DNA from: Polyangia bacterium
GTDB lineage: Bacteria; Myxococcota_A; Polyangia; Polyangiales; JAUICN01
NCBI GenBank assembly: GCA_030427835.1
Contig: JAUICN010000002.1
Location: forward strand, 1 to 64,000
Direction of reading: 5' to 3'
DNA: 64,000 nucleotides
Shown: piece by piece, positions 3,842-57,395 of the stretch
How the letters are laid out: the number at the start of each line of letters is the position of its first letter
Position numbering within the stretch: the first letter of the stretch is position 1
Translations under genes and position numbers: made by a program
Notes under the pieces: generated by a model
Told to the model about the DNA's origin: nothing
What the model saw: the letters and a program-made list of their open reading frames with translations, nothing else
The model's database searches: none

Positions 3842-6800
3842 AGTTGGGGTTCTCCAGGTGTGGATGAAAACTCAAGTTGCTCGTTGAGCAGCAGATCCAC
3901 CCGTTGTAGCCAGTCGCGAAACTTTGGGTATTCGCGTGCGGAGATCTCAGTGGCAGGGATTGCTAGAAAATAACCGACCTCGTACTGAATGTGGGCTTCG
4001 TCAGCGTCGTTTCGGCGCATTTCCACTTTGACGGTTCCAAACTGGCTTTCTATTTGTTGCTTTTTTTGGGCGGGGCGGTTCGACCATTCGTAGCTGTTGG
4101 GCAAGGTGAAAAGGGTGCTGTGCTCAAGGTGAACGGGTATGGAGATGATCAGATCCTGGGTGCGACTTTGTTCTGGCGCCAGGGAGTTCACCAGGTTCTG
4201 CACGCCTGTGGAGCTGCTCTGGTGCCTGACAGGAACCGAGATCATGTGCGCGTCCTTGCTGATTTCTTTGCGTATGAAGTTTGGAATGCGTGTGTTGTAG
4301 ATGAGACGCACCGTGGATTCCCGCTCTAGTTCTACGGACTGCACGTTCGATATGGAGGCCCCAGGAAATGCGGTTTGGAGAATACGTTCAAGCCGCTCTT
4401 GTCGGGTGGCTGTGGGGGCCAGTTGGCGCCGATAGCCTGCTGCCTGATCTCCGTTGAGGGTTTCTTCGATTTCTGCGGTTGCGGTTGTGTCCGAAAATGC
4501 ATTTACTGTGATTTTTCGGCCGTGTTTCACGTGGTTCAGTGTGATTTCGGGAGTTTCATGGCGTTCCACATGAAGGCGGGGAGCTGTGTTGGGATCGTGC
4601 GACGGGCGTGGACCCACGTGAAGTACGGAAGCCCCTCGGTCCATGGACGGGAGTTCTTGGGATCCATGGTGTTCTGCAGTGCCGTCGAGGTAGAGCTTGA
4701 ACTCAGGTACGTAGGCGATGGCGTGGTCGAATACTGCAAGGGAAGGGACATCGTCGGTCAAGGGGCCGTGCCTTGTGGTACGTAGCAATACGAGATCGGT
4801 CGGGATGCCTGCATGCCGAAGCAGAATGTAGAGAAGAGACGCCTTGTCCTTGCAGTCACCGTAGCCCCGTTCCGTAATTCGAGAGATGGAATAGGGCTTG
4901 TGGCTATGGATACCCAGTTCGAGCCCCACGTAGCGTGTGTTGTCGAGTACCCATCCATAGATACGCTGTGTGGCTGTTTTCCTGTCTTCTGCAGCCGTGA
5001 GATCCAGGTTCTCTGTGAGGTTTTGAACTACTCCCTCGAGCTCTGGTGTGGCCACGAGCTGTTCCTTGATGAGATCCCACCACCACTGCCCCAGTTGTTG
5101 CCATGTTTGAAACGTGGAGATGTGCACGTAGGGCAGCCGTTGCTGGGCACCCCGGGCATGGTGTTCACGTGTGCCTTCGGGTAGGTGGGTTGTGGTAAAA
5201 GTATGTTCGCGGTAGGCGCCTTGGGATTTCGTTTCGTGTTGAATGGGCGGTGCCTGCTGGGAACTGTGGTTCTTGAGCTCGATGCGCAGGTTCATTTCTG
5301 GCGGGTGCCGTAATACGTACTTCCACTGCTCTGTGCGAAGCCCTCCACCCGCGACTTGTAGCGTACCAAAGTAGGTGCCGTACCCTGGGTGCCGGCGGAT
5401 GTCGTAGCGTTGGTACTGGATGTCCACGAGGTCCCCTGGTTGCAGTTGGGGAAAGAGAATGACGCTTGCTTGTCTGTTGTAGAACATGCGGTGCCATGGG
5501 CGACCCATGGGTTCCTGAACCACACCGGATGAATCCTGTGTGGATCCATCTGCGTGGTGCACGCGCGCCGTGACAACGCGCACCTCTTGCTGTTCTGGAT
5601 CGTAGGGAATCGCGTAGCTGGATAGGTCTCGGGCTCCGTCGTCTGTGTGAATGGCATAGGTTAGTCGGGTGGTTTGATCGGATAGACCGCTTGTTTCTAC
5701 AGTTTCCACGGTGATGTTCTGGAGCAGGGTGATCCCGTGATCTTTCGGAGACGCGTCGGGGTAGGGTGGCAGCTCCTCCGGGCCGAGGTGTTGCGCGAGT
5801 GGATCCGTGCTGCTCTGTTGGAGTTGTGCCAAGAGTTTTTTTGCGTGGCGGTGTTGCGGATCCCTCTCAAGTGCAGATCTCAGGTGTTCAATGGCAACGG
5901 GTGTGTTGCCCTGGGTGGTGGCCTGTCGGGCGGCCCACAATTGAACCTCTGGGTCGTTCGCAAACGTAGCAATTAGGGCAGCCCTTCGACTGGTTGGTTC
6001 TTTGCTCGAGTATTTCAGTGCAAAAAGGTGTGTATCCACACGGTGGCTTGCCACCTCGAGCAGGGCTTCAATAAGACCTTCAGCTTGCTCCTGTTCGTTG
6101 CGATGGGCGTGCCAGCGGGCAAGGGCTCGTAGTGGTGCCGGATTGCCGGGCTCCAGTTCTAGCTGTTTATGGAGTCCTGTGATGCCCAACGCCACGAGCC
6201 CCACGTTGTCGGCAGCCTCCCTGTGAGTGTGCCAATAGGCAGGCACGTGCCGTTTTTCAATAGGGACTTTCTGAAGCTCGGCAAGAGCCGAGCGTGGCAT
6301 GTCGTGTCGATTCAGTACCCTGGCGCGGGTTAGATGCCACTGAAGATGAAGATTGCTTTGTTCGGGGGGGTGCGAAAGTAGTGGCACAACTTCGTGCTCC
6401 AGGGGTGTGTTTAGCCACGTTCGAGCCGTGAACCACCGCCTGGAATCCGGGTGGAGGCCTACGGTTGAGGAGGTCACAAGATTGCGAATGTGGTCTGTCT
6501 GGCTTGATCGCTGTGCGATGCGCAGGGCTAGGTCGATCCGAGTGGGCGTGGGTTTTTCATCCACCAGCCGCTTTGCACGGGTCCATAGGGTGTCTCTGTT
6601 GTCGTAGGTTCCTGTGAGATACTGAAAGCGAAGAACTCGTTCGCGCTCGCCTGTGCTCCATGTGTCATCCCAACCCTGTACCGTGTCCCATAGGGAGGGG
6701 TAGGGTGTACGGCGACGGATGGTGGGTGCGTTGACAGTGCTTAACCAAATCTTCCATGATCGGTCTTTTACGCATGTTCGCACCAGGAGTTCGTTTTCTC

Positions 6801-8527: not shown

Positions 8528-9598
8528 ATGGCGCATCGGTTGAGGTCGTTTTGTTTGTACCTGTTTGCGTTCACTTGGGCGGCAGGTGTTTCAGAAAGTG
8601 CGCTTGCCCAGGTGCAGTTTGCACCCCTATCGCAGTGTACGGGTCTTGCGCACATCAATACGTTTACGCTCCCCTATTGGGTGGGTGATGTCGAAGCTGT
8701 TGGCGATGACCACATCATTTTCGGTGGGGACAGCGTGGAAATGTGGAGGTACATGGGTACGGCATTTCGTCGAACGGCTACCCTTGGTTCTGATACACGT
8801 GTTCATTCGGTTTCGGCAGGCGATGGCTTTGTCATCACCGTGGATCGCAACGGCAACTGGAGTCCCAAAATATACGCACCACAGTCAGTTCCCACGGGAG
8901 GTTCTTGGTGGGAAGCGTTGTCGTGGAACGAGCTGGCGCTTCCATCTTGGGTTATCAATCGTAGCCCAAACGAGTCATTTCCACCGCAGGTTGTGGCACT
9001 GGGCACAAGTGTTGTGACGGGCAACATGGCCTCAGGATCTGGTGCCCCGTTTCGAATAGGTACTGTGTGCGGGACCCAACCCAGTATCTGCTACCAGGAC
9101 GTGGGTTCTGTGTGGGCACAACACACTAGTAACATATTTGATATTCGCATGGCGAACTCAAACGGCGACCTCTTAGTGAAGCACGCCAACTGGAACCGTC
9201 TGTTTTCACTCACAGAGATGATTCAAGCGGCCACGACTTCGAACTCCTCTCGCATTGGCTACGGGTCGTTGCCACAGCCTGAAAAAGGATCAATTTCTAC
9301 TGGTACATCTAGCACTGCGGGTCAGGTTGGCTTGGCCTACGACGATGCTGCGCAGGCCATGGTGATCCTAGAGCACGTACCCGATGGGCCTGCCCAGCTT
9401 CGTGTCACGACGACCGATGAGGCGGAGGCTCATCCTGAACTTGCCCACGTGGTGTTCGATTCGACCCGTTACCCGTACATGTTTGCAGAGCACCTTCAGG
9501 ACGTGGAAGTTACAAGGGACAAGGTGTACTTGCTTGAGCGGGAAGAGCGCCTTCCTGGCGGTTCAGCTCGGCTCCATATTTTGAAGAAGTGCTGGTGA
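8528..9598 (+). CDS. Secreted beta-propeller-like protein, first of a tandem pair
   Basis: A 356-residue protein with a clear signal peptide (MAHRLRSFCLYLF through ESALAQ). I chose the ATG at 8528 because GAGGAG sits 8 nt upstream; an in-frame GTG at 8507 is less likely. The mature protein starts with a Cys-containing strand (FAPLSQC) and ends with ILKKCW, so a disulfide could join the two ends. The repetitive beta-strand pattern suggests a propeller, but no family is recognised. The neighbouring gene encodes a related lipoprotein: FPPQVVALGTSVVTG here corresponds to FPEIAASGTLVALTG there, and both end in CW. A periplasmic or surface role is inferred. Confidence 0.75.
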   Translation: MAHRLRSFCLYLFAFTWAAGVSESALAQVQFAPLSQCTGLAHINTFTLPYWVGDVEAVGDDHIIFGGDSVEMWRYMGTAFRRTATLGSDTRVHSVSAGDGFVITVDRNGNWSPKIYAPQSVPTGGSWWEALSWNELALPSWVINRSPNESFPPQVVALGTSVVTGNMASGSGAPFRIGTVCGTQPSICYQDVGSVWAQHTSNIFDIRMANSNGDLLVKHANWNRLFSLTEMIQAATTSNSSRIGYGSLPQPEKGSISTGTSSTAGQVGLAYDDAAQAMVILEHVPDGPAQLRVTTTDEAEAHPELAHVVFDSTRYPYMFAEHLQDVEVTRDKVYLLEREERLPGGSARLHILKKCW

Positions 9599-42201: not shown

Positions 42202-42240
42202 GTTTTCTTTCTGGGTTTTCTTTCTGGGTTTTCTTCCTAG
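42200..42240. repeat. Three T-rich 13-bp repeats between convergent genes
   Basis: The unit GGGTTTTCTTTCT occurs about three times between the stop at 42201 and the leftward gene's stop at 42237. The T-rich strand could help terminate the rightward operon. Confidence 0.55.
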
Positions 42241-44192
42241 GGAATGGGGATCATGTAGACGTCGTGCTTGCCGTTGTTGTCGGCGGGTACGAGGCTTGTG
42301 AGGGTGGAGAACACGATGATGCCGCCGTCTGCCGCACCGGACATGGCCGCATGTACGGCACCAGTACCCCCTGGGACCAACCGCGTTTCGCCAGCGTTGA
42401 TGTCTCGAATGTAGAGGTCTGATTGGCTGTTGGTATCCTCGGGTGTGAGCGCAGCGGTGGTGCGAAATAGGACAAGGTTGCCGTCGTCGGTCATGTCGGC
42501 CAGTTCGCTCATGGCCGGAATTTGCTGTCCGTTGCCGTCCAGGGAAACGCGGATGGTTTGCCCGCTGATGCGGTCATGTCGGAAGACGTCGGGTTGGCCG
42601 TTGGTGTCGCCTGCCACGAGATTGCTGGCGTAGGAAAGGAACGCAACCAAGCGGCCGTCCGAGGAAAGATGTGGAAAGAAACTGGAGTTGTTGCCCTGGC
42701 CACCCATGGAGTCAAGGGATCCGATTTCGTTGGTCATCCCTGCCAGGTCGCGGACGAATACGTCTGGTTTCCCGTTGGTGTCTGTGGGAACGATTTGGGT
42801 GTCACTTGTGTAGAAGGCGGCAAAGGTGCCGTTGGCTCCGATGGCAGGGCTGGTGGGTATGCCGGTTTGTTGCGTCATGTCGTGGCGAATGCTTAGTAGG
42901 GAGTTGGTTCGGCTTGCGCAGTAGTCGTAATAGAAGTTGTCGTGCCTTCCATTGGCGTCGCCGGGGATGAGGTTGGTGGCGGGGGAAAGGTAGACCACAT
43001 GGCACCCATCGGAGGACATGGCCACGCGACTTGAGGGCGCGTCGGCTTCACTGCTGTCGAAGGCTTGGCTCACAAGAATCGTCTGTTCGGTGAGCATGTC
43101 TCGCATGTAGAGGTGTTGGGTGCCCGATGTGGTGGGGTTCACAAGATCTGTCTTGGTGGATTCAAAGGCCACGTGTCGACCTCCCCCGGCTGCGGCGTAT
43201 TTGGCAACGCCAAACGTGTAGCCGCTTCCAACGGCGCCGCCCGCACCGGCTTGGCCTAATTGGTTCGCTGAAACAAGTTCATGCTGGCGCGTGATGATAT
43301 CGTAGCGGTAGACGTCAAACTTGTTGTCGCTGTCGTTGTTGGAGAAGTTGCTGGAGCTTGTTTCGAAGACGACGTGCGTGGTGTCGCTTGAGACTGCGGC
43401 GTTCCAGGAGAACCCGTTGCCAGGAGTGCCTTGGAGGTCACCCGAAACGAGAATGGGCGCTTCGTCGTCTTCGTTGGTGATGGGAACGTTGCCAGGGGAG
43501 AGGTTGTTCCAGTTCACGTCTGCACTGCTGTAGGTAAAATCGATGGAGTAGATGATTGGGCCGTCGGCGATTGCGTCGTCCTGCCCGGTGACGATGATGG
43601 GTTTGTAGGTGTTCCAATCGCCGGAGTTGAACACCATGGAGGTTGTGGTGAGCAGTTGTCCTTCAGAGGGATCGGAGGAGGAGAAGCTGAGCGTGACAGG
43701 TGCCGCGGGTGCGCTCTGTAGGCGGATTTGAAGCTCAACCGTGGAACCGAGTTCTGTGGTGGCGTAGTGACTCAGTGTGGTTTCTACCCCCAATGGGCCC
43801 ATGCCGCTGTCGCCACCCATGCCAGTGTCTCCCATGTTGGCATCGCCACCCATGCCGGCGTCGCTGTCCATGCCGGAGTCCGTTGTGCCGCCATCCACGC
43901 CTGGTCCGCCGTCTGAGAGGCTGGAGTCACTGGTGGCGTCTGTGGTGTTGGCGTCTTCCAGCCCTCCGTCGGGTTGGTTTCCCCCGGTTTGAGTGGCATC
44001 GAACGTGTAGGGCCCGGCGTCTAGGGTATTGAACTGCAGGCCGATTTCATCGTAGCCAATTCGCCCGCAGCCCTGGGTTAGCGGTACAATCGCGAGGCAA
44101 ATCCCTGGGCATAGGTAAAGAAAAAGGGTGCGCAAGACCCTGAAGTCACCGCGCACCCCTCCCCCTTTTGTGGCTGCCCCCCCCTGGCCCAT
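42237..44192 (-). CDS. PD40/WD40-like beta-propeller lipoprotein (twin B)
   Basis: A 651-residue lipoprotein with lipobox LTQGC followed by CGRIGYD, near the CGRLGFD of the gene at 19035. A linker of Gly/Met/Asp repeats (SGMDSDAGMGGDA) leads to a Calx-beta-like segment (LSFSSSDPSEGQL) and about six PD40 propeller repeats with the LSSDGRLVAFLS and TNLVPGDANG pattern. It has the same architecture and length as twin A. The upstream 242-bp AT-rich gap separates it from the divergent metalloprotease gene. A surface-binding role is inferred. Confidence 0.85.
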   Translation of the reverse strand: MGQGGAATKGGGVRGDFRVLRTLFLYLCPGICLAIVPLTQGCGRIGYDEIGLQFNTLDAGPYTFDATQTGGNQPDGGLEDANTTDATSDSSLSDGGPGVDGGTTDSGMDSDAGMGGDANMGDTGMGGDSGMGPLGVETTLSHYATTELGSTVELQIRLQSAPAAPVTLSFSSSDPSEGQLLTTTSMVFNSGDWNTYKPIIVTGQDDAIADGPIIYSIDFTYSSADVNWNNLSPGNVPITNEDDEAPILVSGDLQGTPGNGFSWNAAVSSDTTHVVFETSSSNFSNNDSDNKFDVYRYDIITRQHELVSANQLGQAGAGGAVGSGYTFGVAKYAAAGGGRHVAFESTKTDLVNPTTSGTQHLYMRDMLTEQTILVSQAFDSSEADAPSSRVAMSSDGCHVVYLSPATNLIPGDANGRHDNFYYDYCASRTNSLLSIRHDMTQQTGIPTSPAIGANGTFAAFYTSDTQIVPTDTNGKPDVFVRDLAGMTNEIGSLDSMGGQGNNSSFFPHLSSDGRLVAFLSYASNLVAGDTNGQPDVFRHDRISGQTIRVSLDGNGQQIPAMSELADMTDDGNLVLFRTTAALTPEDTNSQSDLYIRDINAGETRLVPGGTGAVHAAMSGAADGGIIVFSTLTSLVPADNNGKHDVYMIPIP

Positions 44193-44434: not shown

Positions 44435-45199
44435 GTGACTTACTTTCGATGGGTTCTTCTTGGGTGGATGTGTGCATTGGTCCTTGGTGGGTGCGCGGGC
44501 GATGATTTCGATCCACTTGAGGTGTTTGCACCATCGGTGACGGATGTGGTGTTTGAGGTGGACTACGAGGAGGGTGCAGAGCCGTTCGTGGGGAACCTTC
44601 CCAATGGCAACAGCCGTTGGAATCTCACGCGCAACAACGTGGAAGCCATGTTTGGGGTAACCCCCGCTCGCACGTTTACGATTCCTGATCAGCTCGCCCA
44701 GATGGAAAATCTTGGCGCTATTGATGACGGTGTTTTTTCCGTTAGTAATCTATTGTCCATTGCCGACCAGGCGTCGGATGAGACGAATACTTCGAGTCGG
44801 AAGGTATTCCATGTGCTGTTTCTCGATGGATACTTGGATGATGGCGGAGAGCCCAACGAGGGTGTGTTGGGGGTTTCCATTGGCGGTACGCGCACCATTG
44901 CCATGTTCAAACCCGTGATCGACAGCACCAGCGCGGCTGGGTTTGTGGAGCAGACCACGTTGGTGCACGAGTTTGGCCATGCCATTGGCCTTGTGAACAA
45001 TGGTGTTCCGTTGCAATCAGAACATCACGATCACGAAAACGGTGCCCACTGTACCAACGACAAATGCGTGATGTATTTCGCCAACGAAGGCAAGGCCGAT
45101 CTTGCGGATTTTGTTCGACGACTGGTGGTGACCGGAGACGACACCGTATTCGGCCCCGAGTGCCAGGCGGACGTGGAAGCTGTGCGCGGTGATGAATAG
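44435..45199 (+). CDS. Archaemetzincin-like metalloprotease lipoprotein
   Basis: A 254-residue lipoprotein (lipobox LVLGGC). The zinc motif HEFGHAIGLVNNG (His178, Glu179, His182) is followed by HHDHENGAHC, then CVMY. The layout HExxHxxG...HCxxxxC.M matches archaemetzincin-type sites, but with an insertion before the third His, a form I recall from hypothetical proteins in Myxococcota. The Cys pair (206 and 211) and Met213 fit. It is probably a monomeric, envelope-anchored peptidase; the substrate is unknown. Confidence 0.82.
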   Translation: MTYFRWVLLGWMCALVLGGCAGDDFDPLEVFAPSVTDVVFEVDYEEGAEPFVGNLPNGNSRWNLTRNNVEAMFGVTPARTFTIPDQLAQMENLGAIDDGVFSVSNLLSIADQASDETNTSSRKVFHVLFLDGYLDDGGEPNEGVLGVSIGGTRTIAMFKPVIDSTSAAGFVEQTTLVHEFGHAIGLVNNGVPLQSEHHDHENGAHCTNDKCVMYFANEGKADLADFVRRLVVTGDDTVFGPECQADVEAVRGDE

Positions 45200-45221
45200 T
45201 ACTGGCGGATGGTAGTGGGGA

Positions 45222-46724
45222 CTACAGACTGGTATCGACCGCGGTGTACCAAAACTGGTGGTTGGCGGTAGCCTTCTTCCGGCCCTTGTTGATGGATTTC
45301 AAAAGTTCGGCTCCTTCTTGGCCCACGGCGGTGTATCCCATGGCCTCTAGCGCGCTGCGGGCGGTACCTATTCGATGTGTGGGGCCAAAGAGGATGACGA
45401 GGTGGTGGGCCTTGGGGCACGTGCGCACTTTCCCTTGTTTGTTTGCGACGCTTCCGAGCTCGCTTGTGGGCAGGGCCCCTTGGTTGACGTCAATGTAATC
45501 AATCCCCGTGTTCGAATAGTCGTCGCCCGTATTGAAAGTGGCCGTGGGCTGACCGGCGATGAGAAGGGAAGCGTTGTCGTACACTGAACTGAGGGCCTTG
45601 AAGGCTCCGCCTGATTTCGCAAGAATTCTGGAGCGCCAGTCACCCGCAGGCACCGTGCTTCCTGTTGTTCGGATCTCGCAGGTAAAGTTGTCCTTCACCG
45701 TGGTGGTGGGTGGACGGTAGCCGACGCCTTCCCCAAAGGTCACCCTTGGCATGTGGCGCTCTAGAAAGATGTCTGCGGTTCCGACTGCGTAGATGCCGAG
45801 TACTTCCCCGATGTGAATGCCTTCCATGCGGAGCAACTTGCTCCAGCCCAGTTGCTCGTAGGTTTCAACAGCGTTCTCGATGCACTGTACGGGTACGAGG
45901 CCCATCTCGTTGAGGAAGGGGCCAAAGATGTAGTGCCAGAGGTCGCGGCATTCGCTGGACCAGACCATGCGGTAGATGGCCCAACTTAGGACGATGGTGC
46001 CCGTGGCTCCGATGGCGGACATGGTGCCGGTGGTGGCGCTGCCCATGGCTGCTGCGGTTCTCGCAGCGGCGGCCAGGGGTACGCGCAGGGTCTGCGTGAT
46101 TGTGTTCGCACCTGTGGTGAGGGCAGTTCGAATGGTGTTGAAGGACTTGGCGCCAGACTTTGCGGCCCGGGTGACCACGACCCTGACTTTCTGAAGCCAG
46201 TTCGGGCTTCTGGGACCTGTTCCCTTGGGCCATTTGGTGTGGGGTTGGGATGTGGCGAGTTGCTCTACACTTTTCGCAAACTCCGCGGCGGTGGGTCCAC
46301 CGAAAATGAAGGCGAAGGAGGGGCCGTTGTTGGAGGGTTGGTCCATCATGGCTTGGATGTGTTCGCGGTTCGTGGTGGTGGGTAGGGTGTCGCCTTGATG
46401 GTTGATGACGCTGCTGGCGCCGGCACCATTGGTGGCCTTGAGGCACATGAAGGCGGGCTGTACGTCGCCCTGTTCGATATGGGGCTGGAAGTCGTTGCAG
46501 TCCTGCGCTGGAAAGGCGAGCGATAGGGTGAGCTCTGGTGTTTTCCCGTCGTCCATGGCCTGGTAGGCCTCTTCCATGGAGAGGGTTTGGATGTGTTCCG
46601 GGTCTGCGGATTTCGCGGAGGAGTGAAGAGCTGTGCAGGCCGTGGCCCAGGGGACTATGGCCAACAGTAGGGTGAGCGGGTGGGGTGAACGCTTGGGTAC
46701 AGCGGGTAAGCGCGTGGGGGGCAT
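45222..46724 (-). CDS. Lipoprotein of unrecognised three-member family, copy A
   Basis: A 500-residue lipoprotein (lipobox ATAC). The N-terminal domain holds LSLAFPAQDCNDFQPHIEQGDVQ and CLKATNGAG, nearly matched in copy B. After KGTGPRSPNWLQKVRVVVTRAA come Ala/Thr-rich hydrophobic turns and TIVLSWAIYRMVWSSECRD, a likely membrane-inserting segment with conserved Cys. The C-terminal half (MEGIHIGEVLGIYAVGTAD onwards, PKAHHLVILFG) is also shared. No known domain. The paralogue starts 122 bp upstream. Function is not predictable; the segment suggests pore or membrane activity only as speculation. Confidence 0.8.
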   Translation of the reverse strand: MPPTRLPAVPKRSPHPLTLLLAIVPWATACTALHSSAKSADPEHIQTLSMEEAYQAMDDGKTPELTLSLAFPAQDCNDFQPHIEQGDVQPAFMCLKATNGAGASSVINHQGDTLPTTTNREHIQAMMDQPSNNGPSFAFIFGGPTAAEFAKSVEQLATSQPHTKWPKGTGPRSPNWLQKVRVVVTRAAKSGAKSFNTIRTALTTGANTITQTLRVPLAAAARTAAAMGSATTGTMSAIGATGTIVLSWAIYRMVWSSECRDLWHYIFGPFLNEMGLVPVQCIENAVETYEQLGWSKLLRMEGIHIGEVLGIYAVGTADIFLERHMPRVTFGEGVGYRPPTTTVKDNFTCEIRTTGSTVPAGDWRSRILAKSGGAFKALSSVYDNASLLIAGQPTATFNTGDDYSNTGIDYIDVNQGALPTSELGSVANKQGKVRTCPKAHHLVILFGPTHRIGTARSALEAMGYTAVGQEGAELLKSINKGRKKATANHQFWYTAVDTSL

Positions 46725-46845
46725 TCTAGGCTACCTAGCCAGATTTATGCCAGCCGACCTTTTTCCACAATGATGGGCCTAAACCGCTTTCAGTGCCCAC
46801 CAAAGTGGCTACTCGGGTTTCGTGTCCCCACCTGGTCTGTACACT

Positions 46846-48378
46846 CTAGGGGCGGTGATCGGTGTCGATGTACCAGAGCTGGTGGGTACTGGGTTTGGCA
46901 CTGGTTGAGTTCTCGATGGAATCCAGCCACCCACCACGGTCAACATCCTTGTAGCCGTATCCGTCCAACATACCGGCGATGCCCCAGCGCATGTCAGGCA
47001 TTCCGGTGAGTACAATCACGTGATGGGCGGTGGGGCAGGTTTTCACGGTGTTTCCTTTTGCCGCCAGTGCTTGGAGGAGCGCGTTGCTGCCGTTTCCCGT
47101 GCTGTAGACGTCCACGCCCGTGTTGGCGTAGTCGGTACCCGCAAGGAAGCTTGCTACAGGCTTATTGTTCACCTTCAGCATGGCGGGTGCGCCCAGCCAT
47201 CCCACGTGATCCAACAGGGAGCCTATTTTCGACAGTAGGCTTCCGATGGATCCTGTCTGGGTTAGTTGCACACCGGTGGTGATGCCGCAGTGGGGACGAT
47301 CATCTGTTTTAGGGATAGCTCTGGGGTACCTGCCGCCGTGGTCGATCTGAAGTTCTGGCATGTGTTTGAACAGGAAGGCTTCGGCAGCGCCCACTTGGTA
47401 GATGCCTAGGAACTCACCGAGGGCGATGCCTTCCATGCGCAGCATGTTGCTCCAGCCCAGTTGCTCAAAGGTTTGCTGGGCGTTTTCCACGCATTGCACG
47501 GGGACCAAACTGATGGCGTTGAGGTAGGGCCCGAAGATGTAGTGCCAGATGTCGCGGCACTCGCTGGACCAAACCATGCGGTAGATGGCCCAGCTAAGAA
47601 CGGTGAGGCTCGCGGCTCCACCCATGGCGGGAAGTACACTCGAGGTTGCAGCGCTAGAGGCTGCCGTGCTGGCGGCGCTGGTGACGATTGGAACGGCCCG
47701 TGCGGCTGCAGTGAGGGCGACGCGTACGGTGCTTGCAAAGACCGTTGCGCCGGCCGCAAGTTGGGTTTTGATGGCGTTGAAGGTTTGGGCGCCCGAGGTA
47801 GCGGCCCGGGTGAGGGCGACGCGTACGTTTTGCAACCAACCGGGGTTGCTGGGGCCGGTACCCTTGGGCCACTTGGCGTTGGGCTGAGTTTTGGCCAGCT
47901 CTTGCACCTGTTGAGCAAAGTTTTCTGCGACCGGTCCACCTAGTAAGAATGCCCAGGAGGGACCACCGTGCCCGGCATGCTGCCGTAGGGCGCGGAGGTG
48001 TTCGTCGTTCTGGGTGGTGGGGAGTGTTTTCCCATCGTGATTGATGATTTCTGTTGCCCCAGCACCGTTGATGGGCTTGAGACACATGAAGGCGAGTTGT
48101 ACATCGCCCTCTTCGATATGGGGCTGGAAGTCGTCGCAATCTGTGGCCGGGAATGCCAAAGAGATCGTGAGTTCCGGGCTCGCGTCGTCGTCCATCGCAA
48201 GGGTTGCCTCTTTCACCGACAATGTGTGAACGCCGTTTGGGCTGAGGGCCTCGGGGTTCGCTGATTTTAGGGCGGTTCCGTTTGCCGCCATGCACGCCGG
48301 GGCTAGCAGGACGAGTAGACCGAGTATTTGCCGTTGTATGCCGGTATGGGGGACTCGAGGGGAGAGCGGGGGGGCCAT
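46846..48378 (-). CDS. Lipoprotein of unrecognised three-member family, copy B
   Basis: A 510-residue paralogue of the gene at 45222. Shared stretches include LSLAFPATDCDDFQPHIEEGDVQ and LSWAIYRMVWSSECRDIWHYIFGP, then VQCVENAQQTFEQLGWS. Its signal ends LLAPAC. Conserved Cys residues in both copies suggest disulfides. It is followed, same direction, by copy A after 121 bp, so one operon or two. It diverges from a lipoprotein gene (48635), with a 21-bp tandem repeat between. Confidence 0.8.
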   Translation of the reverse strand: MAPPLSPRVPHTGIQRQILGLLVLLAPACMAANGTALKSANPEALSPNGVHTLSVKEATLAMDDDASPELTISLAFPATDCDDFQPHIEEGDVQLAFMCLKPINGAGATEIINHDGKTLPTTQNDEHLRALRQHAGHGGPSWAFLLGGPVAENFAQQVQELAKTQPNAKWPKGTGPSNPGWLQNVRVALTRAATSGAQTFNAIKTQLAAGATVFASTVRVALTAAARAVPIVTSAASTAASSAATSSVLPAMGGAASLTVLSWAIYRMVWSSECRDIWHYIFGPYLNAISLVPVQCVENAQQTFEQLGWSNMLRMEGIALGEFLGIYQVGAAEAFLFKHMPELQIDHGGRYPRAIPKTDDRPHCGITTGVQLTQTGSIGSLLSKIGSLLDHVGWLGAPAMLKVNNKPVASFLAGTDYANTGVDVYSTGNGSNALLQALAAKGNTVKTCPTAHHVIVLTGMPDMRWGIAGMLDGYGYKDVDRGGWLDSIENSTSAKPSTHQLWYIDTDHRP

Positions 48379-48508
48379 GGAGCCCTATGCCTTGCCAGTT
48401 TTGTGCCAAGCCAGTGATCCGCTCAAAATGTAGTACATTTGCTCCAACTACCTCGCTGTCTACCCCGGAAGGTGGCTAGTCGGGTTGTTTGTCTCCAGCA
48501 TCTTGGTC

Positions 48509-48550
48509 CATCGGTACAGGCTTCCTAGGCATCGGTACAGGCTTCCTAGG
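48509..48550. repeat. Two perfect 21-bp tandem repeats
   Basis: CATCGGTACAGGCTTCCTAGG occurs twice head to tail without mismatch, 131 bp from the leftward start (48378) and 85 bp from the rightward start (48635). It contains CCTAGG. It may be an operator pair or just a duplication. Confidence 0.85.
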
Positions 48551-48634
48551 AAGAGCTTCGGGTACGCGGGCGTATGGCACCGGTGTGCATTGCAAAGGAA
48601 ACCAGGCCACAGTTGGGCCGAAGGTGGCTTACTT

Positions 48635-49675
48635 ATGACTCGACGTGGCAGTTTCGCGTTTGGCGCTAATTTTCTGGGGCTCTCTTTTTTACTGGGGTTC
48701 ACCCTTGTTGGCTGTGTGGCTCTTTCCGGGGCCTCTGAGGAGTTCGGGGCGAAGGGTGTGGCCCAGGAAGTGCTGGATGGGGTGGGTGTGTTCCTGGGTT
48801 GGGGTACGGATCGGTACGAACACCCGCTGTGTGAGGGTGTGGTGGTAGGTGCCGAGCAGAGCACAGCGGTGGTTTGGACCGCGCTCACGCAATATGGGGC
48901 CGTGGGGCCCAGGGTTGAGTTTTCGGAGAAGTTCGTTGAATCAAGAAAAAAGGCCAGGAATGTGGCCCGCATCAAGGAACCTGAGACTCGCTACTTTTGT
49001 GTGGCGTCATCTGGTTCTGCGGAGTGTTGCACGGACCACGATTGCGATGCGGGTCTGCCCTATTGCGATGCCGTTTGTGAGGATAGGTGCCGACTTCGTA
49101 TTGCCTACGTACAACAGGGCACCGAGTGCCAAGGGCTCATTGAGGACAACAAGTCCTTCTACTTCATGCGTGGCCTTTCGGAGTTTTTTAATCCCAATGT
49201 GACAGGCGTGGCTGCGGTTACACGCCATCGCTACTTTGTTCGCCCAGATGAGTACGAACCTGATCTTCCAAAGGAAACGGTGCCGGGGGTTTCTCCTCCG
49301 ACGCCTCCCACGGAGCGCTACGCCGTTGCTGTTCGAAATGAGCTTGTGGGTGCGCCTGGTCCGGAGGTGCCGACCATTGGCATGCAAACCGTGTGGCGCC
49401 GGCTAAGCCAGGTGGAAACGGGCAATGCGATGTTGGGGAGTGATCTTGGAAAGGATGTTTGCTGGGTAGATCCCATTGCGGCCCTGGCGCGCGCGTCCGA
49501 GCAGGCTTCCCATGTGGTGTACTACACACAGTTTTTTGATGACGACGACCGTTTGGGCATCAAGCGGGTGGTAACGACTCCGATTGGCCCCTACTCGCTT
49601 ACTGTAGAACAGGCGGGAATCTACAGGGGTTCCGTGCGGCTCCTGAATGGCAAGTTCGCTGGCTTTGTGGAATAG
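48635..49675 (+). CDS. Cys-rich lipoprotein beside the three-member family
   Basis: A 346-residue lipoprotein; ATG 48635 gives lipobox LVGC, and codons before it (to 48485) read only the repeat. The mature part has a Cys cluster SAECCTDHDCDAGLPYCDAVCEDRC near residue 130, an EGF- or Dickkopf-like arrangement seen in secreted myxobacterial proteins. The rest is mixed. Its 3' end overlaps the third family copy on the other strand by 55 bp. No clear function. Confidence 0.78.
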   Translation: MTRRGSFAFGANFLGLSFLLGFTLVGCVALSGASEEFGAKGVAQEVLDGVGVFLGWGTDRYEHPLCEGVVVGAEQSTAVVWTALTQYGAVGPRVEFSEKFVESRKKARNVARIKEPETRYFCVASSGSAECCTDHDCDAGLPYCDAVCEDRCRLRIAYVQQGTECQGLIEDNKSFYFMRGLSEFFNPNVTGVAAVTRHRYFVRPDEYEPDLPKETVPGVSPPTPPTERYAVAVRNELVGAPGPEVPTIGMQTVWRRLSQVETGNAMLGSDLGKDVCWVDPIAALARASEQASHVVYYTQFFDDDDRLGIKRVVTTPIGPYSLTVEQAGIYRGSVRLLNGKFAGFVE

Positions 49676-50654
49676 GGTTTGAGGAGTACGTCGTTTTTGG
49701 TGGCTACTTGGTGAAGTAGAAGAGTTTTTTGCGACTGGGTGATCGATTCCGATAGGTTGCTTCCGTACAGCTTCTTGAAGCCATGGTTTTCCAACAGGGT
49801 TGTGTTTCTTGGTGTGTTGTTGCCCAGCACGATGAGGTAGGTGGCGGTTGGGCACAGGGCAATTTGTGCCGCTTTTTCCGGAAGGGTGAGGGGATGCACG
49901 TCTGCATAGAAATCTGAAAGTACCTTCGGGATTTCCGAGCCGAACTGGTAGGGCAGGGGGAGAGGGGTTTTGTTGATGATGAGCTGCGCGGGCCCACGCA
50001 GTGATCCCAATTGCCAGGACAGATTCGAATCCCTGTAGAGTTTGCTTGGGTTGGTGGGTCCGCTCTTTCCAAGAAGCTTCACTGTGCACTGTCCGTCGCT
50101 CCTGGGGGTATCGACACCCGGTGGAAGATAGCCAGGTTCGTGGCGTAGGCTGTATTGCTCGATGATCTTTGCGGCTTCCACGGCGCTTACGAGGCCGAGC
50201 GCGTTCCCAAGGATGGCCATCTCTTTGCGTACAAGGCCGTAGAGGCCGAACTGTTCGTAGGCTTCCTGGGCCTGTTCCCAACATTTCTGGTGCAGCAGGC
50301 CCATCATATCCAGGAAGGGCGCGAATAGGTTGTGGATGAGGTCGTCGCAGGTGAAGGATTCGATGATTCGAAATACCCCCCCAACTGAGGGTAAATGCTC
50401 CTGTTGCTGCCAGGGTCTGGGGGAAGGTGCGTGCTGTTTGGATGACGGCCACCCGCAGTACCTTTCCGGTGGTGGCGAGGGATTGTTTGAGGAGTCGTGT
50501 GCCTGTGTGTACGCCCCTTAGGATGATGGTTCTTGCTCTGGAGAAGAAGTGCGCTGTAGGAGCGACTTCGGCGCCGCATCCGAGCAGACAAAGCACCGCA
50601 ATCGCGGTGCCTAGGGTTGCGTTTCTTGGGGGGTATTCTGAATAGCCTCAGCAA
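49621..50654 (-). pseudogene. Third copy of the lipoprotein family, frameshifted in two homopolymers
   Basis: Reading left, TTG 50654 begins LLRLFRIP; dropping one C from a C6 run (50628-50633) joins it to ATLGTAIAVLCLLGC, a good lipobox. A second break is a G7 run (50376-50382): dropping one G turns LSWGG-IS into LSWGVFRIIES, which then aligns with LSWAIYRMVWSS of copies A and B. After that DDLIHNLFAPFLD matches RDLWHYIFGPFLN. It ends at 49621. The N-terminal domain of A and B (about 150 residues) is absent. It is decayed, phase-variable, or mis-sequenced. Confidence 0.75.
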
Positions 50655-50786
50655 GAACTGACCCGTGGCTAGAAACGGTTTCCTATGCGGAGTGGCACCG
50701 TTTCGGGATTCATTCCCTTGTTGTCTGATGGCCATTGTTACGAAAATTTGGACTTCGGGTCCCGTTTTTGGCCCAATCCATGGGCG

Positions 50787-52055
50787 ATGGTTCAACCGGT
50801 GCGACGCATGCTTTGGGTAGGTGGTGCTTTTCTGGTGATGGCGCTTTTTGTGCCGGTGCCTGTGCACGCGGAATCCGTGTCCAGCCGGGGGCGTTGGACG
50901 GTGCAACCTGGGGATGTGCTGGGCACGTTGGCACGGCGTTTTCACGTTAGCGTGGACGAGCTGAAGCGCTGGAATGAACTCACCTCGGACCGTATTCGGG
51001 TGGGGCAGACCCTGGTGGTGCAGTGTCCGCCTGAGCTTCGAGCATCGCCCTCTTCTACCGAGGAGGACCAATCCGCGCGAACTACGCCATCGGTCGATGA
51101 GGGTGGTGAAGCTTCTGCTGAGGGCGAAGGCCCGCGTACGCAGCGGTATGTGGTGAAACGTGGAGATCGCCTTTCACGTATCGCCCAGTCTCACGGGATG
51201 ACAGTCGAGGACATTGTTTCGCTCAATCCTGGGATGTCTCCAAACCGGTTGCGGGTAGGGCAAATCCTCCGCATGCGACAAGGAAAATACCAGGTGGAGT
51301 ATGAGGTGCGCCGCGGGGATACCTTAAGTTCTCTTGCGAAACAGCACGATGTTTCGGTGCGAGATTTAAGCCGCTGGAATCGGCATGTGAACCCCAACAG
51401 GATTCGATCGGGGCAGCAGTTGGTGATTCACACGGATCGGGCACCGAGCCATTCCGAGTCTGTGGGCGCTCCCAATCGTGGTGTGTTGCGTAACGCCGCT
51501 CAGTTGCCCACCCACCCGGGGTACGTGATCCGAAGCCGGAACAAGGCGTGGGGGACAGCGGAAACGATTCACGCCATCGTGGATGGTGCCGACCGTGTGG
51601 TGGCGCGCCACGGGAGTTCACCACGCATTCGTGTGCATGATATTAGCCGCCGCTACGGGGGATCCCTTGACGGACACTTGAGTCATCAAAGCGGGCGCGA
51701 TGTGGACATCGCATATTACCAACGGCGGTGCCCCAACAACGTGTGTATGTTCGTGAGCGTTCGGCCCCGAGATTTGGATGTGCGGCGGCAATGGACCCTG
51801 TTTCAGCACTGGCTGGAGAACGATTCGGTGGAGTCGATTTTCGTGGACTACGCGTTGCAACGGCCGCTCTACCAGTTTGCACAGCGCAATGGCGCAACCA
51901 CTCAGCAGTTGGACCGCTGGTTTCAATACCCAAGGGGAAAAAATGTTCCCGCCGGGGTGGTGCGCCACTTCCCTAAACACCACCACCACTTCCACGCCCG
52001 TTTCCGTTGTCATTCCACGGACTCCGAGTGCTCTCCGCCGCTTGCGAGTCACTAG
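50787..52055 (+). CDS. LysM-repeat MepA-type murein endopeptidase
   Basis: A 422-residue secreted protein; ATG 50787 gives a signal peptide ending VPVHAES. Three LysM domains (about 37-79, 119-164, 170-215) bind peptidoglycan. The C-terminal domain is like penicillin-insensitive murein endopeptidase (peptidase M74): LSHQSGRDVDI (His300, Asp305, Asp307) and HHHHFHARF (398-406) supply zinc ligands. It should cleave D-Ala-mDAP cross-links; family members are periplasmic. A codon-rich upstream start at 50685 is unlikely. Confidence 0.9.
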   Translation: MVQPVRRMLWVGGAFLVMALFVPVPVHAESVSSRGRWTVQPGDVLGTLARRFHVSVDELKRWNELTSDRIRVGQTLVVQCPPELRASPSSTEEDQSARTTPSVDEGGEASAEGEGPRTQRYVVKRGDRLSRIAQSHGMTVEDIVSLNPGMSPNRLRVGQILRMRQGKYQVEYEVRRGDTLSSLAKQHDVSVRDLSRWNRHVNPNRIRSGQQLVIHTDRAPSHSESVGAPNRGVLRNAAQLPTHPGYVIRSRNKAWGTAETIHAIVDGADRVVARHGSSPRIRVHDISRRYGGSLDGHLSHQSGRDVDIAYYQRRCPNNVCMFVSVRPRDLDVRRQWTLFQHWLENDSVESIFVDYALQRPLYQFAQRNGATTQQLDRWFQYPRGKNVPAGVVRHFPKHHHHFHARFRCHSTDSECSPPLASH

Positions 52056-54360: not shown

Positions 54361-55251
54361 GTGAATCTTAGGGTTTGGTTACAGGCCGCGCGGCCGTTGG
54401 CGCATGTTAGTTTGCTGTTTCCATTGTTGTGGGGGCAGTTGTTTGCGGCGCATGTGGATGGGTGGCGAATGGTTTGGGTACACCTGTTTGGGGTGTTCGC
54501 TCACCTGTTCATTGTATTCGCGAACGACGTGGCGGATGTAACCGTGGATCGGGCACGTGGGGGTCGCACCCTGGTGTCTGGAGGATCGGGTGTGCTCGTG
54601 GAGGGCAAGATTTCTGTGGCGACGCTCAAACGTGCTGCGCTTGCGATGGCGTTGCTCATGCCGGTGCCGTTGTGGGTGGCGGAATTGGGGGTTTGGAGCG
54701 CGGTGTACGCGGGCGCCACGGTTCTTTTGGTTTGGCTTTACAGCTTTCCACCTGTTCGAGCTTCCTACCGCGGTTGGGGTTCAATTCTGCAGGGTGTGGG
54801 TGTGGGTGTGGTGCTTCCACTGGTGGGATTTCAAGCTCAGGCTGGCTCCTTGGGTAGGCTTTTTTGGTGGTTCTTGGTTCCCACGTTTTTGTTGGGCGTG
54901 GCATCGAACCTAATCACCGCTTTGCCGGATTTGGAATCGGATGGGGCGTCCGGAAAACGAACCGAGGTTGTGCGGTGGGGGCATGTGAAGTCACGGAGTG
55001 TGGTTTTCTTACTTCTTGCATGCGCTGCGGGTTACGTGGGTGTGTTGGTGCTAGGAGTGTTCTTTTTGTCGACCTTGTGTGTCGGATTGGGTTGGCTATG
55101 GGTGGAGCACCGGCGACTCAAGGGCGGCGCCACGACGCTTCGCTTTGTTGAGGTCACCATGGGCGTACTGCAACTGACGTGGATACTGATGTTGGCCTAT
55201 GGGCTACTGGGCCAGCGGTTGTGGAGCTATTGGCTACACGGAATAGGCTGA
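54361..55251 (+). CDS. UbiA-type prenyltransferase
   Basis: A 296-residue membrane protein with eight or nine hydrophobic segments. The first Asp-rich site NDVADVTVDR (residues 55-64) and the second DLESD (190-194) bind the prenyl diphosphate through Mg. The order resembles MenA/UbiA members that prenylate quinone precursors. Substrate cannot be told: no quinone-pathway genes are nearby. It starts with GTG and ends inside the stop of slt on the other strand (25-bp overlap). Confidence 0.88.
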   Translation: MNLRVWLQAARPLAHVSLLFPLLWGQLFAAHVDGWRMVWVHLFGVFAHLFIVFANDVADVTVDRARGGRTLVSGGSGVLVEGKISVATLKRAALAMALLMPVPLWVAELGVWSAVYAGATVLLVWLYSFPPVRASYRGWGSILQGVGVGVVLPLVGFQAQAGSLGRLFWWFLVPTFLLGVASNLITALPDLESDGASGKRTEVVRWGHVKSRSVVFLLLACAAGYVGVLVLGVFFLSTLCVGLGWLWVEHRRLKGGATTLRFVEVTMGVLQLTWILMLAYGLLGQRLWSYWLHGIG

Positions 55252-57395
55252 TCCCAGGGGGGGAGGTTTCCTGAGTGGAGCCATTCGTAGCGGCCGTAGG
55301 CTTCCAGGACTTTGCGGGTGTAGCGGCGGGTTTCGCGGTAGGGGATTTCTTCTACCCAAACATTGAATGGGGGTGGTGGAGTGCTTTCACATGCCCGGGT
55401 GATCCACTTCTGGGCGTTGTGTTTGCCCGCGTTGTAGGCCGCTGGAACGACACCAACCACGCCGAAGTCATGTAGGTGTTGGCCGATGAGCGTGGCTCCG
55501 AGCAATATGTTTGTTTCGGGTTCGGTGAGTGTGCCTGTGGTGATGGGTGGCGTTGCGGTTTCCCGCACCCGAGCGGCCGTGGCGGGCATGAGTTGCATGA
55601 GCCCCTGTGCTCCCGCGGAGGAACGCACGTCTGTGGTGAAGCGGCTTTCGGTGCGACTGACGGCCAACAGTAGCGAGGTTGAGACGGTGGTGTGGTCACT
55701 TGCGGTTTGAAACGCTCCGGCGAAGGGTGTGGGGTAGGCCCCCTTCCAAAGGGCAGCGCTTACCGCGGTGGTCTCGGTGCTGGCTCTTGGAAGGGTGAGG
55801 GTCGCCCATGAGATGGCCTGGGCGTGCCTTTGGGATTCGTGCAGCAGTGCCGATAGCCAGGCGATCTGTGCGGTGCTTGGTTTGTCATGCCGGTTGGAGT
55901 GTTGCGCTTCAAGTATCACCAACTTTGCTTCTCCCATGTTTGCTAGTTTTGCCAGGCGATGGCTTGTGGCCTGTTCGTAGGGGGTTAGCGCGCGGTGTAC
56001 GGCGGCCCAGGGTAGTTTGTGGGTGGGTGATTTGGGTATGTCCTGCAGGGTCGGGTGTTGTTGGTGTACGAGCTGAGCGTAGTAGCTCACCGGCCAGCGG
56101 GTCACTGTGGTTTGGTAGCTTTGTTGGGCTTCTTCATTGCGGCCCAGATCCTGAAGTAGGTTTCCGTGCCAATAGGCATTGCGGCCTGGGGTGCCTTCGT
56201 CTGCATCTCCGCTGCTAAGGAGCCCGCCAGCGAGCCATTCCACCGCCCGTTCCCTGTGGAGTACGGCACCGGTGCCATCGTGGTTTTGGTCAGCGAGCCG
56301 AGCGTCTTTGTATTCTAACCAGGCGCGCCGGAACCGTGCGCGATCTGCGTGGTCCGAATGGGGAAGTTGGATGACCAGTTGTTCGAGCCATTGCTTTGCC
56401 TGGGGGCGGTCGTCCTGATCCACCGAAGCAATGGCGGCCCCAAATAGGGCGTCGTCGGCCAGGCGGTGTTGGGGAAAGCGTTCGAAGAGGGCGCGGTAGT
56501 GGGTGATGGCATGATCGAAACGCCCGGCACGTAGGCTTTCGCGGCCGCCGTAGTAGCGAACCCAGGGCTGCACCGAGGGTTGGGGGCACTGGGGGGCGGT
56601 GGCATCGGCCCAGGCGACGGTGCGGGCCCGATCCCGCTGGCGTAGGATGGCGCGGCCCTGCTGTAGTTTGGCTTCGCAGGCACGGTCGGGGTTGCGTCGT
56701 TGCAGATCTCGAGCGAGTTTTTCGAACGCTTTTTCTGCCTGTTTGTATTGGCCCCGCTGTAGGAGGTGTTCTGCCCTTGACCAAGGGTCTAGGGGTGGCG
56801 CGGTGGATCCGCCTATGTGCGTGAGTGCCGACCGAGCTCCAGCGGTTGCGTGTTGGGAAGTGTTGTAGTGCGCAATGAACTTGGCGGCCTGTTGCTGCCC
56901 GGCCCAGGGGTAGTCGAGGGGGCGTAAGGCCTCGAGGGCGCGGGTAACTGAAAGGCGTGCGATCAGCGGTACGGCGTGTAGGGTGGCCCAGGGGGCCAGG
57001 TCCACGTCGGTTTCACGTACGGCATTCCAATGGCCCAATGCACGATCTGGCAGATGGAGTTCCTCACAGGCGCGGGCGGCCATCCAATGGAGCGTTCCCC
57101 GTTGGGGTTCTAGGGTTTCGGTGTGGCCGTTGTGTAGGTGATGTTCGGCATCTGCCAGTGCTTTTTTGAAGTCGCCTGCGTCGATCTGCGCCCGTACGGA
57201 ATCCGATTCTGGGGTGGGGTAGGGCAGAGAGGTGGGCCCTGGGTGCACGGGAGTGTTTGTTGTGTGGGAAGTCTGCGCAGGAGTTGTGCCCGGGGTGCTT
57301 CCGCGGCAGGTGGCGCCCGTGAGGGACAGCAGCACGAGTGGGAGCAACCATCGGTGGCTGTGCCTTAGGGGGGGATCGGTAGAAAAAGGTTTCAC
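55227..57395 (-). CDS. slt: Soluble lytic murein transglycosylase lipoprotein
   Basis: It cuts glycan strands of peptidoglycan to 1,6-anhydro-muropeptides. The 722-residue protein has lipobox TGATC and a long helical TPR/superhelix region (about 70-540). The SLT catalytic domain shows SRTESRF (Glu583), AGAQGLMQLMP, and VPAAYNAG. Slt is usually soluble; the lipobox suggests outer-membrane anchoring as in MltC/E types. With the MepA-like gene nearby, this is the second murein hydrolase in 7 kb. Confidence 0.93.
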   Translation of the reverse strand: MKPFSTDPPLRHSHRWLLPLVLLSLTGATCRGSTPGTTPAQTSHTTNTPVHPGPTSLPYPTPESDSVRAQIDAGDFKKALADAEHHLHNGHTETLEPQRGTLHWMAARACEELHLPDRALGHWNAVRETDVDLAPWATLHAVPLIARLSVTRALEALRPLDYPWAGQQQAAKFIAHYNTSQHATAGARSALTHIGGSTAPPLDPWSRAEHLLQRGQYKQAEKAFEKLARDLQRRNPDRACEAKLQQGRAILRQRDRARTVAWADATAPQCPQPSVQPWVRYYGGRESLRAGRFDHAITHYRALFERFPQHRLADDALFGAAIASVDQDDRPQAKQWLEQLVIQLPHSDHADRARFRRAWLEYKDARLADQNHDGTGAVLHRERAVEWLAGGLLSSGDADEGTPGRNAYWHGNLLQDLGRNEEAQQSYQTTVTRWPVSYYAQLVHQQHPTLQDIPKSPTHKLPWAAVHRALTPYEQATSHRLAKLANMGEAKLVILEAQHSNRHDKPSTAQIAWLSALLHESQRHAQAISWATLTLPRASTETTAVSAALWKGAYPTPFAGAFQTASDHTTVSTSLLLAVSRTESRFTTDVRSSAGAQGLMQLMPATAARVRETATPPITTGTLTEPETNILLGATLIGQHLHDFGVVGVVPAAYNAGKHNAQKWITRACESTPPPPFNVWVEEIPYRETRRYTRKVLEAYGRYEWLHSGNLPPWDQPIPCSQ

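Follow-up and report, generated by a model that had tools for sequence, protein, structure and literature searches.

A frame-broken third copy of a predicted lipoprotein gene in a Polyangia genome and its probable decay at homopolymer runs

The window analysed here comprises the first 64,000 nucleotides of contig JAUICN010000002.1 (385,618 bases) in the draft genome of a Polyangia bacterium (GCA_030427835.1; 3.32 Mb in 30 contigs, 98% complete). It contains three related genes on the minus strand, two of which are intact (copies A and B) and one of which (copy C) shifts frame at seven consecutive G, together with a convergent gene between B and C and a divergent gene beyond C (Table 1). The product of the convergent gene gave no match at the curated cut-off in Pfam or NCBIfam, and a perfect tandem repeat of a 21-base unit in two copies (48509-48550) lies just 5' of it. 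No promoter of the sigma-70 type was found in 44900-51200. As a control, 717,002 bases of the same genome were sampled, corresponding to 21.6% of the genome with a GC content of 58%.

Table 1 Genes, pieces and homopolymer runs at the locus (window coordinates; run letters refer to the coding strand unless marked).
Feature	Coordinates	Strand	Basis
Copy A, intact, 500 aa	45222..46724	-	ORF listing, genome search, alignment
C6 run in copy A, codons 2-3, in frame	46716..46721	-	
Copy B, intact, 510 aa	46846..48378	-	ORF listing, genome search, alignment
C7 run in copy B, codons 2-4, in frame	48368..48374	-	
Predicted lipoprotein gene (by eye), convergent, between B and C	48635..49675	+	ORF listing
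Copy C, frame-broken third paralogue, possible TTG start to stop in post-A6 frame	49704..50654	-	both ends placed by eye
A6 run (T6 on +) near 3' end of copy C, possible third break	49725..49730	-	by eye
Copy C core, C-terminal half of the family, post-G7 frame	49733..50376	-	profile match, codon log-odds
G7 run (C7 on +), site of coding-frame change	50376..50382	-	profile and frame HMM
Upstream piece of copy C, hydrophobic stretch, LLGC lipobox and helical region, frame entering G7	50384..50626	-	codon log-odds; weak homology except to A
C6 run (G6 on +) near probable start of copy C, suspected second break	50628..50633	-	matches the 5' C runs of A, B and C25 in position
Divergent gene, three LysM stretches and peptidase M74 domain; true start may lie further downstream	50685..52055	+	

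When copy B was used as a query, five family members were found in its own genome, namely A, B, copy C and one member each on contigs C17 and C25 (hereafter named after their contigs). Copies A and B are 50% identical, and the identity to B is 27% for C17, 21% for C25 and 26% for copy C. Copy C has four intact paralogues (A, B, C17 and C25). By eye, the family members look like lipoproteins, the boxes of A and B being less canonical; in copy C, LLGC can be seen after a hydrophobic stretch, with the basic n-region located in another frame. Outside this genome no credible relative was found. In 55 comparison genomes, all listed as belonging to the same order and none to the same genus or family, the best non-self match was at E 0.0155 with B as the query and at E 0.0384 with the copy C core. 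Two scans of GTDB species genomes, using two or six short peptide patterns, retrieved no relatives of the family; these scans require exact matches and so reach close relatives only, and entries for this genome or one very near to it were possibly omitted from them. Database searches were similarly negative, with a best E value of 0.16 in Pfam (queried with A, B and the core of copy C) and 0.23 in PHROGs (all five members), no match of any of the five members in NCBIfam or PADLOC, and no solved structure matching the five-member profile up to E 1. The predicted structure of copy B with A had a mean pLDDT of 30.9 and was too poor for use.

A preliminary description of this DNA had reported two homopolymer frameshifts in copy C, at G7 and at C6, and both runs lie exactly where it placed them. 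For G7, the frameshift is confirmed by two independent kinds of evidence. First, the profile built from the four intact members matches copy C over positions 236-471 of 475 (E 6e-31 for a search space of 1), and this match begins at the first codon after G7, in a frame that differs from that of the upstream coding signal; other translated pieces of at least 15 residues from both strands of 49601-50720 matched the profile at best with E 0.073. Second, a three-periodic codon-statistics model (frame HMM) trained on the contig's long open frames, which uses no homology, switches frame at 50379/50380. Over 50384-50626 the total log-odds is +9.2 in the frame entering G7, compared with -29.1 and -13.7 in the other two frames. 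The frame break at G7 is therefore real in this assembly. Runs of at least seven G or C are not themselves rare (79 in 717 kb), but a frame change at such a run is. Copy C carries three runs of at least six, of which one is the break just described and two are suspected breaks. If the frame is read unchanged through G7, it stays open for 323 further codons, antisense into the neighbouring gene (49403-50596, minus strand). As an alternative protein end this stretch is unsupported, because 44 of 370 genes contain off-frame stretches of at least 216 codons; at random places in long frames, off-frames of that length are found in 0.8% of cases, which makes the one in copy C unusual by its place.

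The preliminary description had also stated that, with one base removed from each run, copy C aligns column for column with A and B. This is overstated, since copy C is without the family's N-terminal domain. In the alignment, read by eye, this domain of approximately 130-150 residues separates the lipobox from the helical region in the four intact relatives A, B, C17 and C25. On its own, the upstream piece gave no profile match (E 0.17 for its best stretch). Joined to the core by X it added 8.5 bits, a gain equalled by 29 of 1000 full shuffles, and with its last four residues (LSWG) held fixed, 174 of 1000 shuffles scored as well. In pairwise comparisons, its similarity to A was clear (0/500 shuffles as good) and that to C17 suggestive (4/500); no clear similarity was detected to B (145/500) or C25 (85/500).

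A second break at C6, near the start of copy C, is plausible. The frame entering G7 offers only a GTG as a start, which would leave almost no signal peptide, and a TTG with a basic n-region lies upstream of C6 in another frame (both by eye); these observations are the reason for suspecting C6. Signal peptides do not align. The suspicion gains indirect support from the other members, because C runs also lie near the likely starts of A, B and C25. A 5' C run within about 30 nt of the likely start is found in four of the five members (C6 in A, C25 and copy C, C7 in B), and the 5' ends of the family appear to share it except for C17, which has no C run near its start and only a G6 far inside the gene. 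In C25 the run (L057:5388-5393) covers nt 13-18 counted from the likely ATG, or nt 31-36 counted from an alternative upstream TTG. The A6 run is perhaps a third break. The frame after it ends at once in KLFYFTK and a stop, which resembles by eye the family ends HQLWYIDTDHRP and HQFWYTAVDTSL, each followed by a stop; in a homology test of this very short tail, 681 of 1000 shuffles scored as well.

One explanation of these breaks is a consensus error, in which case the organism would have an intact gene and the assembly would have miscounted one or more runs. The break at G7 and both suspected breaks are all at homopolymers and would be of the same one-base type (by eye), the remainder of copy C looks intact, and if G7 were the sole break, a single assembly error would suffice. 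The control sample was examined for similar events. Its 717 kb yielded 155 same-strand frame changes, of which 152 were like ordinary gene junctions and three were odd, that is, the upstream stop lay more than 60 nt past the change or no start was nearby. Only one of the three had a homopolymer of at least five within 80 nt, namely the G7 of copy C. The other two, in L071 near base 5923 and in L087 near base 9487, have no homopolymer nearby. This rule recovered 73 of the 120 one-base shifts that were simulated at runs of at least five sampled from contig C18, and an earlier, stricter rule recovered 27 of 50. Since no other odd frame change in 717 kb adjoins a homopolymer, generally poor homopolymer calling is unlikely, and so is widespread consensus error in the assembly. 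The sample contained 343 runs of at least six and 71 of at least seven located 150 nt or more inside called coding stretches; these were by construction not at a detected frame change, and they leave out the G7 of copy C owing to its place at the end of a stretch. From these counts the rule of three gives a rough upper bound of about 1.4% per run of at least six and about 7% per run of at least seven, so that with only 71 control runs a rate of a few percent per run is still allowed for the longer class. If C6 is also a break, however, an error becomes much less likely, as it would be very improbable for a single small gene to collect two or three errors barring locally poor coverage, and the lost domain is of another kind than miscounted runs. 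Taken together, we regard consensus error as unlikely, and the G7 change probably exists in the organism rather than being a single assembly error.

The 5' C run raises another explanation, in which slippage at C6 near the start turns the lipoprotein off and on, copy C being in the off state. The runs within about 20 nt of the likely ATG of A, B and C25, with the C6 of copy C at the matching place, speak for it, whereas among 522 called genes 13, A and B included, carry a C run of six or more within the first 54 nt; this figure is a minimum, as C25 and the gene at 55227-57395 escaped the start rule. By gene class, and with the same imperfect start rule, such runs were present in two lipoprotein-like genes out of 53 (both of them the copies A and B), in 3 of the 106 other genes that look secreted and in 8 of the remaining 363, so that a genome-wide 5' C run specific to lipoproteins is unsupported. 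Two of the genes with 5' C runs have a housekeeping look and are, as we take them from their sequences, GTPase-like and kinase-like, which weakens a switching role. In addition, the 5' enrichment was spotted post hoc, and the family members are not independent. With another start rule, 211 genes together had five G/C runs of at least seven in their first 60 nt, and 231 kb of gene bodies had 23. Separately, we observed that two minus-strand genes that look lipoprotein-like by eye, at 42237-44192 and 55227-57395, carry a G/C run near the listed start, of eight at 44177-44184 and of seven at 57368-57374, respectively.

The runs of copy C are themselves short. Contingency tracts usually comprise eight or more G or C, a length that neither G7 nor C6 reaches. 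Short tracts can nevertheless switch, as excerpts of PMC1891110 describe the bvgS C6 tract of Bordetella pertussis as phase-variable, a published exception. The same excerpts describe an excess of C/G runs longer than eight in Bordetella (PMC1891110). In our sample long tracts are not over-represented; G/C runs are depleted, with observed/expected ratios of 0.67 at lengths of at least six, 0.54 at seven and 0.59 at eight, and A/T runs of at least six are at expectation (1.01). According to passages of PMC2831843, with which our sample agrees, poly-C and poly-G are generally under-represented in prokaryotes, and no 5' bias was found for them; as far as those passages go, the 5' C runs of the family are therefore somewhat unusual. 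Conservation of the tracts is also uneven, because the 5' run is shared by four of five members and no run is present in the corresponding codons of A, B, C17 and C25 at the place of G7, which argues that G7 is not a conserved switch. It would be a second, internal break where one switch suffices. Slippage-controlled switching, the surface-gene interpretation offered in the preliminary description, is quite improbable for copy C, and we keep it as a minority reading because C6-C7 lies close to the start in all members except C17. Put for the family as a whole, the idea that the conserved 5' poly-C serves as a low-rate on-off switch in a genome that avoids such runs, with copy C caught off, is a long shot.

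It can also be imagined that the protein is still made at a low level, with transcription slippage or ribosomal frameshifting correcting the frame at the runs. The codon signature of copy C is intact, and homopolymer frameshifts of Blochmannia and Buchnera are reportedly corrected by transcriptional slippage, judging from the excerpts of PMC3017870. Those cases, however, are described there as poly-A/T tracts in AT-biased genomes (PMC3017870), whereas copy C has G7 and C6, and two or three corrections per message would be needed if all runs are breaks. We consider such recoding very improbable.

Of the three options that the preliminary description had left side by side, decay fits best, general long-read error is unsupported, and phase variation is retained in the minor place given above. 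We favour decay, with a probability of roughly 0.6: copy C would be a recently inactivated, redundant paralogue on its way to loss through slippage-driven decay. This reading is preferred because the copy is redundant, a domain is lost, one break is demonstrated with one or two more suspected, and the paralogues have no counterpart of G7. The interruption of the frame relative to the homologues and the further loss of the domain (by eye) are both as found in pseudogenes. The signs of relaxed constraint, namely codon drift, lost conserved residues and stops, were looked for and not seen. The codon log-odds per nt is 0.053 for the core, close to 0.055 for both A and B, and 0.038 for the upstream piece. 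Copy C keeps 19 of the 26 columns that are invariant in the other four members, and the same test gave 19 of 27 for C17 and 19 of 21 for each of A, B and C25. In the approximately 300 codons of the two pieces of copy C there is no in-frame stop. The damage looks recent since the core codon signature and the conserved columns have hardly drifted; for the same reason, "recent" is the most that can be said of this decay, and we assign copy C to the pseudogenes less firmly than the broken frame would suggest. Furthermore, an intact codon signature with no in-frame stop would be equally expected from an error or a reversible switch, which counts against decay.

If decay is the correct reading, replication slippage would have changed the run length by one base at G7, probably at C6 and perhaps at A6. 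With intact relatives present, there would be no selection against a change in run length, and copy C would be heading for loss. We infer, rather than observe, the order in which the domain was lost and the frame was broken. Copy C presumably no longer makes a working protein.

As for its meaning, decay of copy C would be a routine loss of a redundant surface gene at homopolymers, a finding ordinary in kind, and it would warn annotators against calling copy C intact or phase-variable. If the shared 5' C run did vary in length, it would represent poly-C phase variation in a family without relatives found outside this genome. We believe that this shared run is the one feature at the locus most worth read-level attention.

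Compared with known systems, copy C resembles contingency loci with poly-C/G tracts in Neisseria, Campylobacter and Bordetella in being a surface-type gene with a C run near the start of several family members and one member out of frame. It differs from them in that its runs, known from a single assembly, are only 6-7 long, a second, internal break is present, and the genome sample is poor in G/C runs. With the slippage-tolerated frameshifts of Blochmannia and Buchnera it shares a frame broken at a run and little other visible decay; here, in contrast, the runs are G/C in a sample of 58% GC, more than one break is suspected, and the gene is redundant. Recent homopolymer-frameshift pseudogenes of bacteria are likewise characterized by a one-base frame change at a run in a redundant and otherwise intact coding sequence, as seen in copy C. 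Unlike them, copy C is also without a whole domain and has no relative by which the event could be dated.
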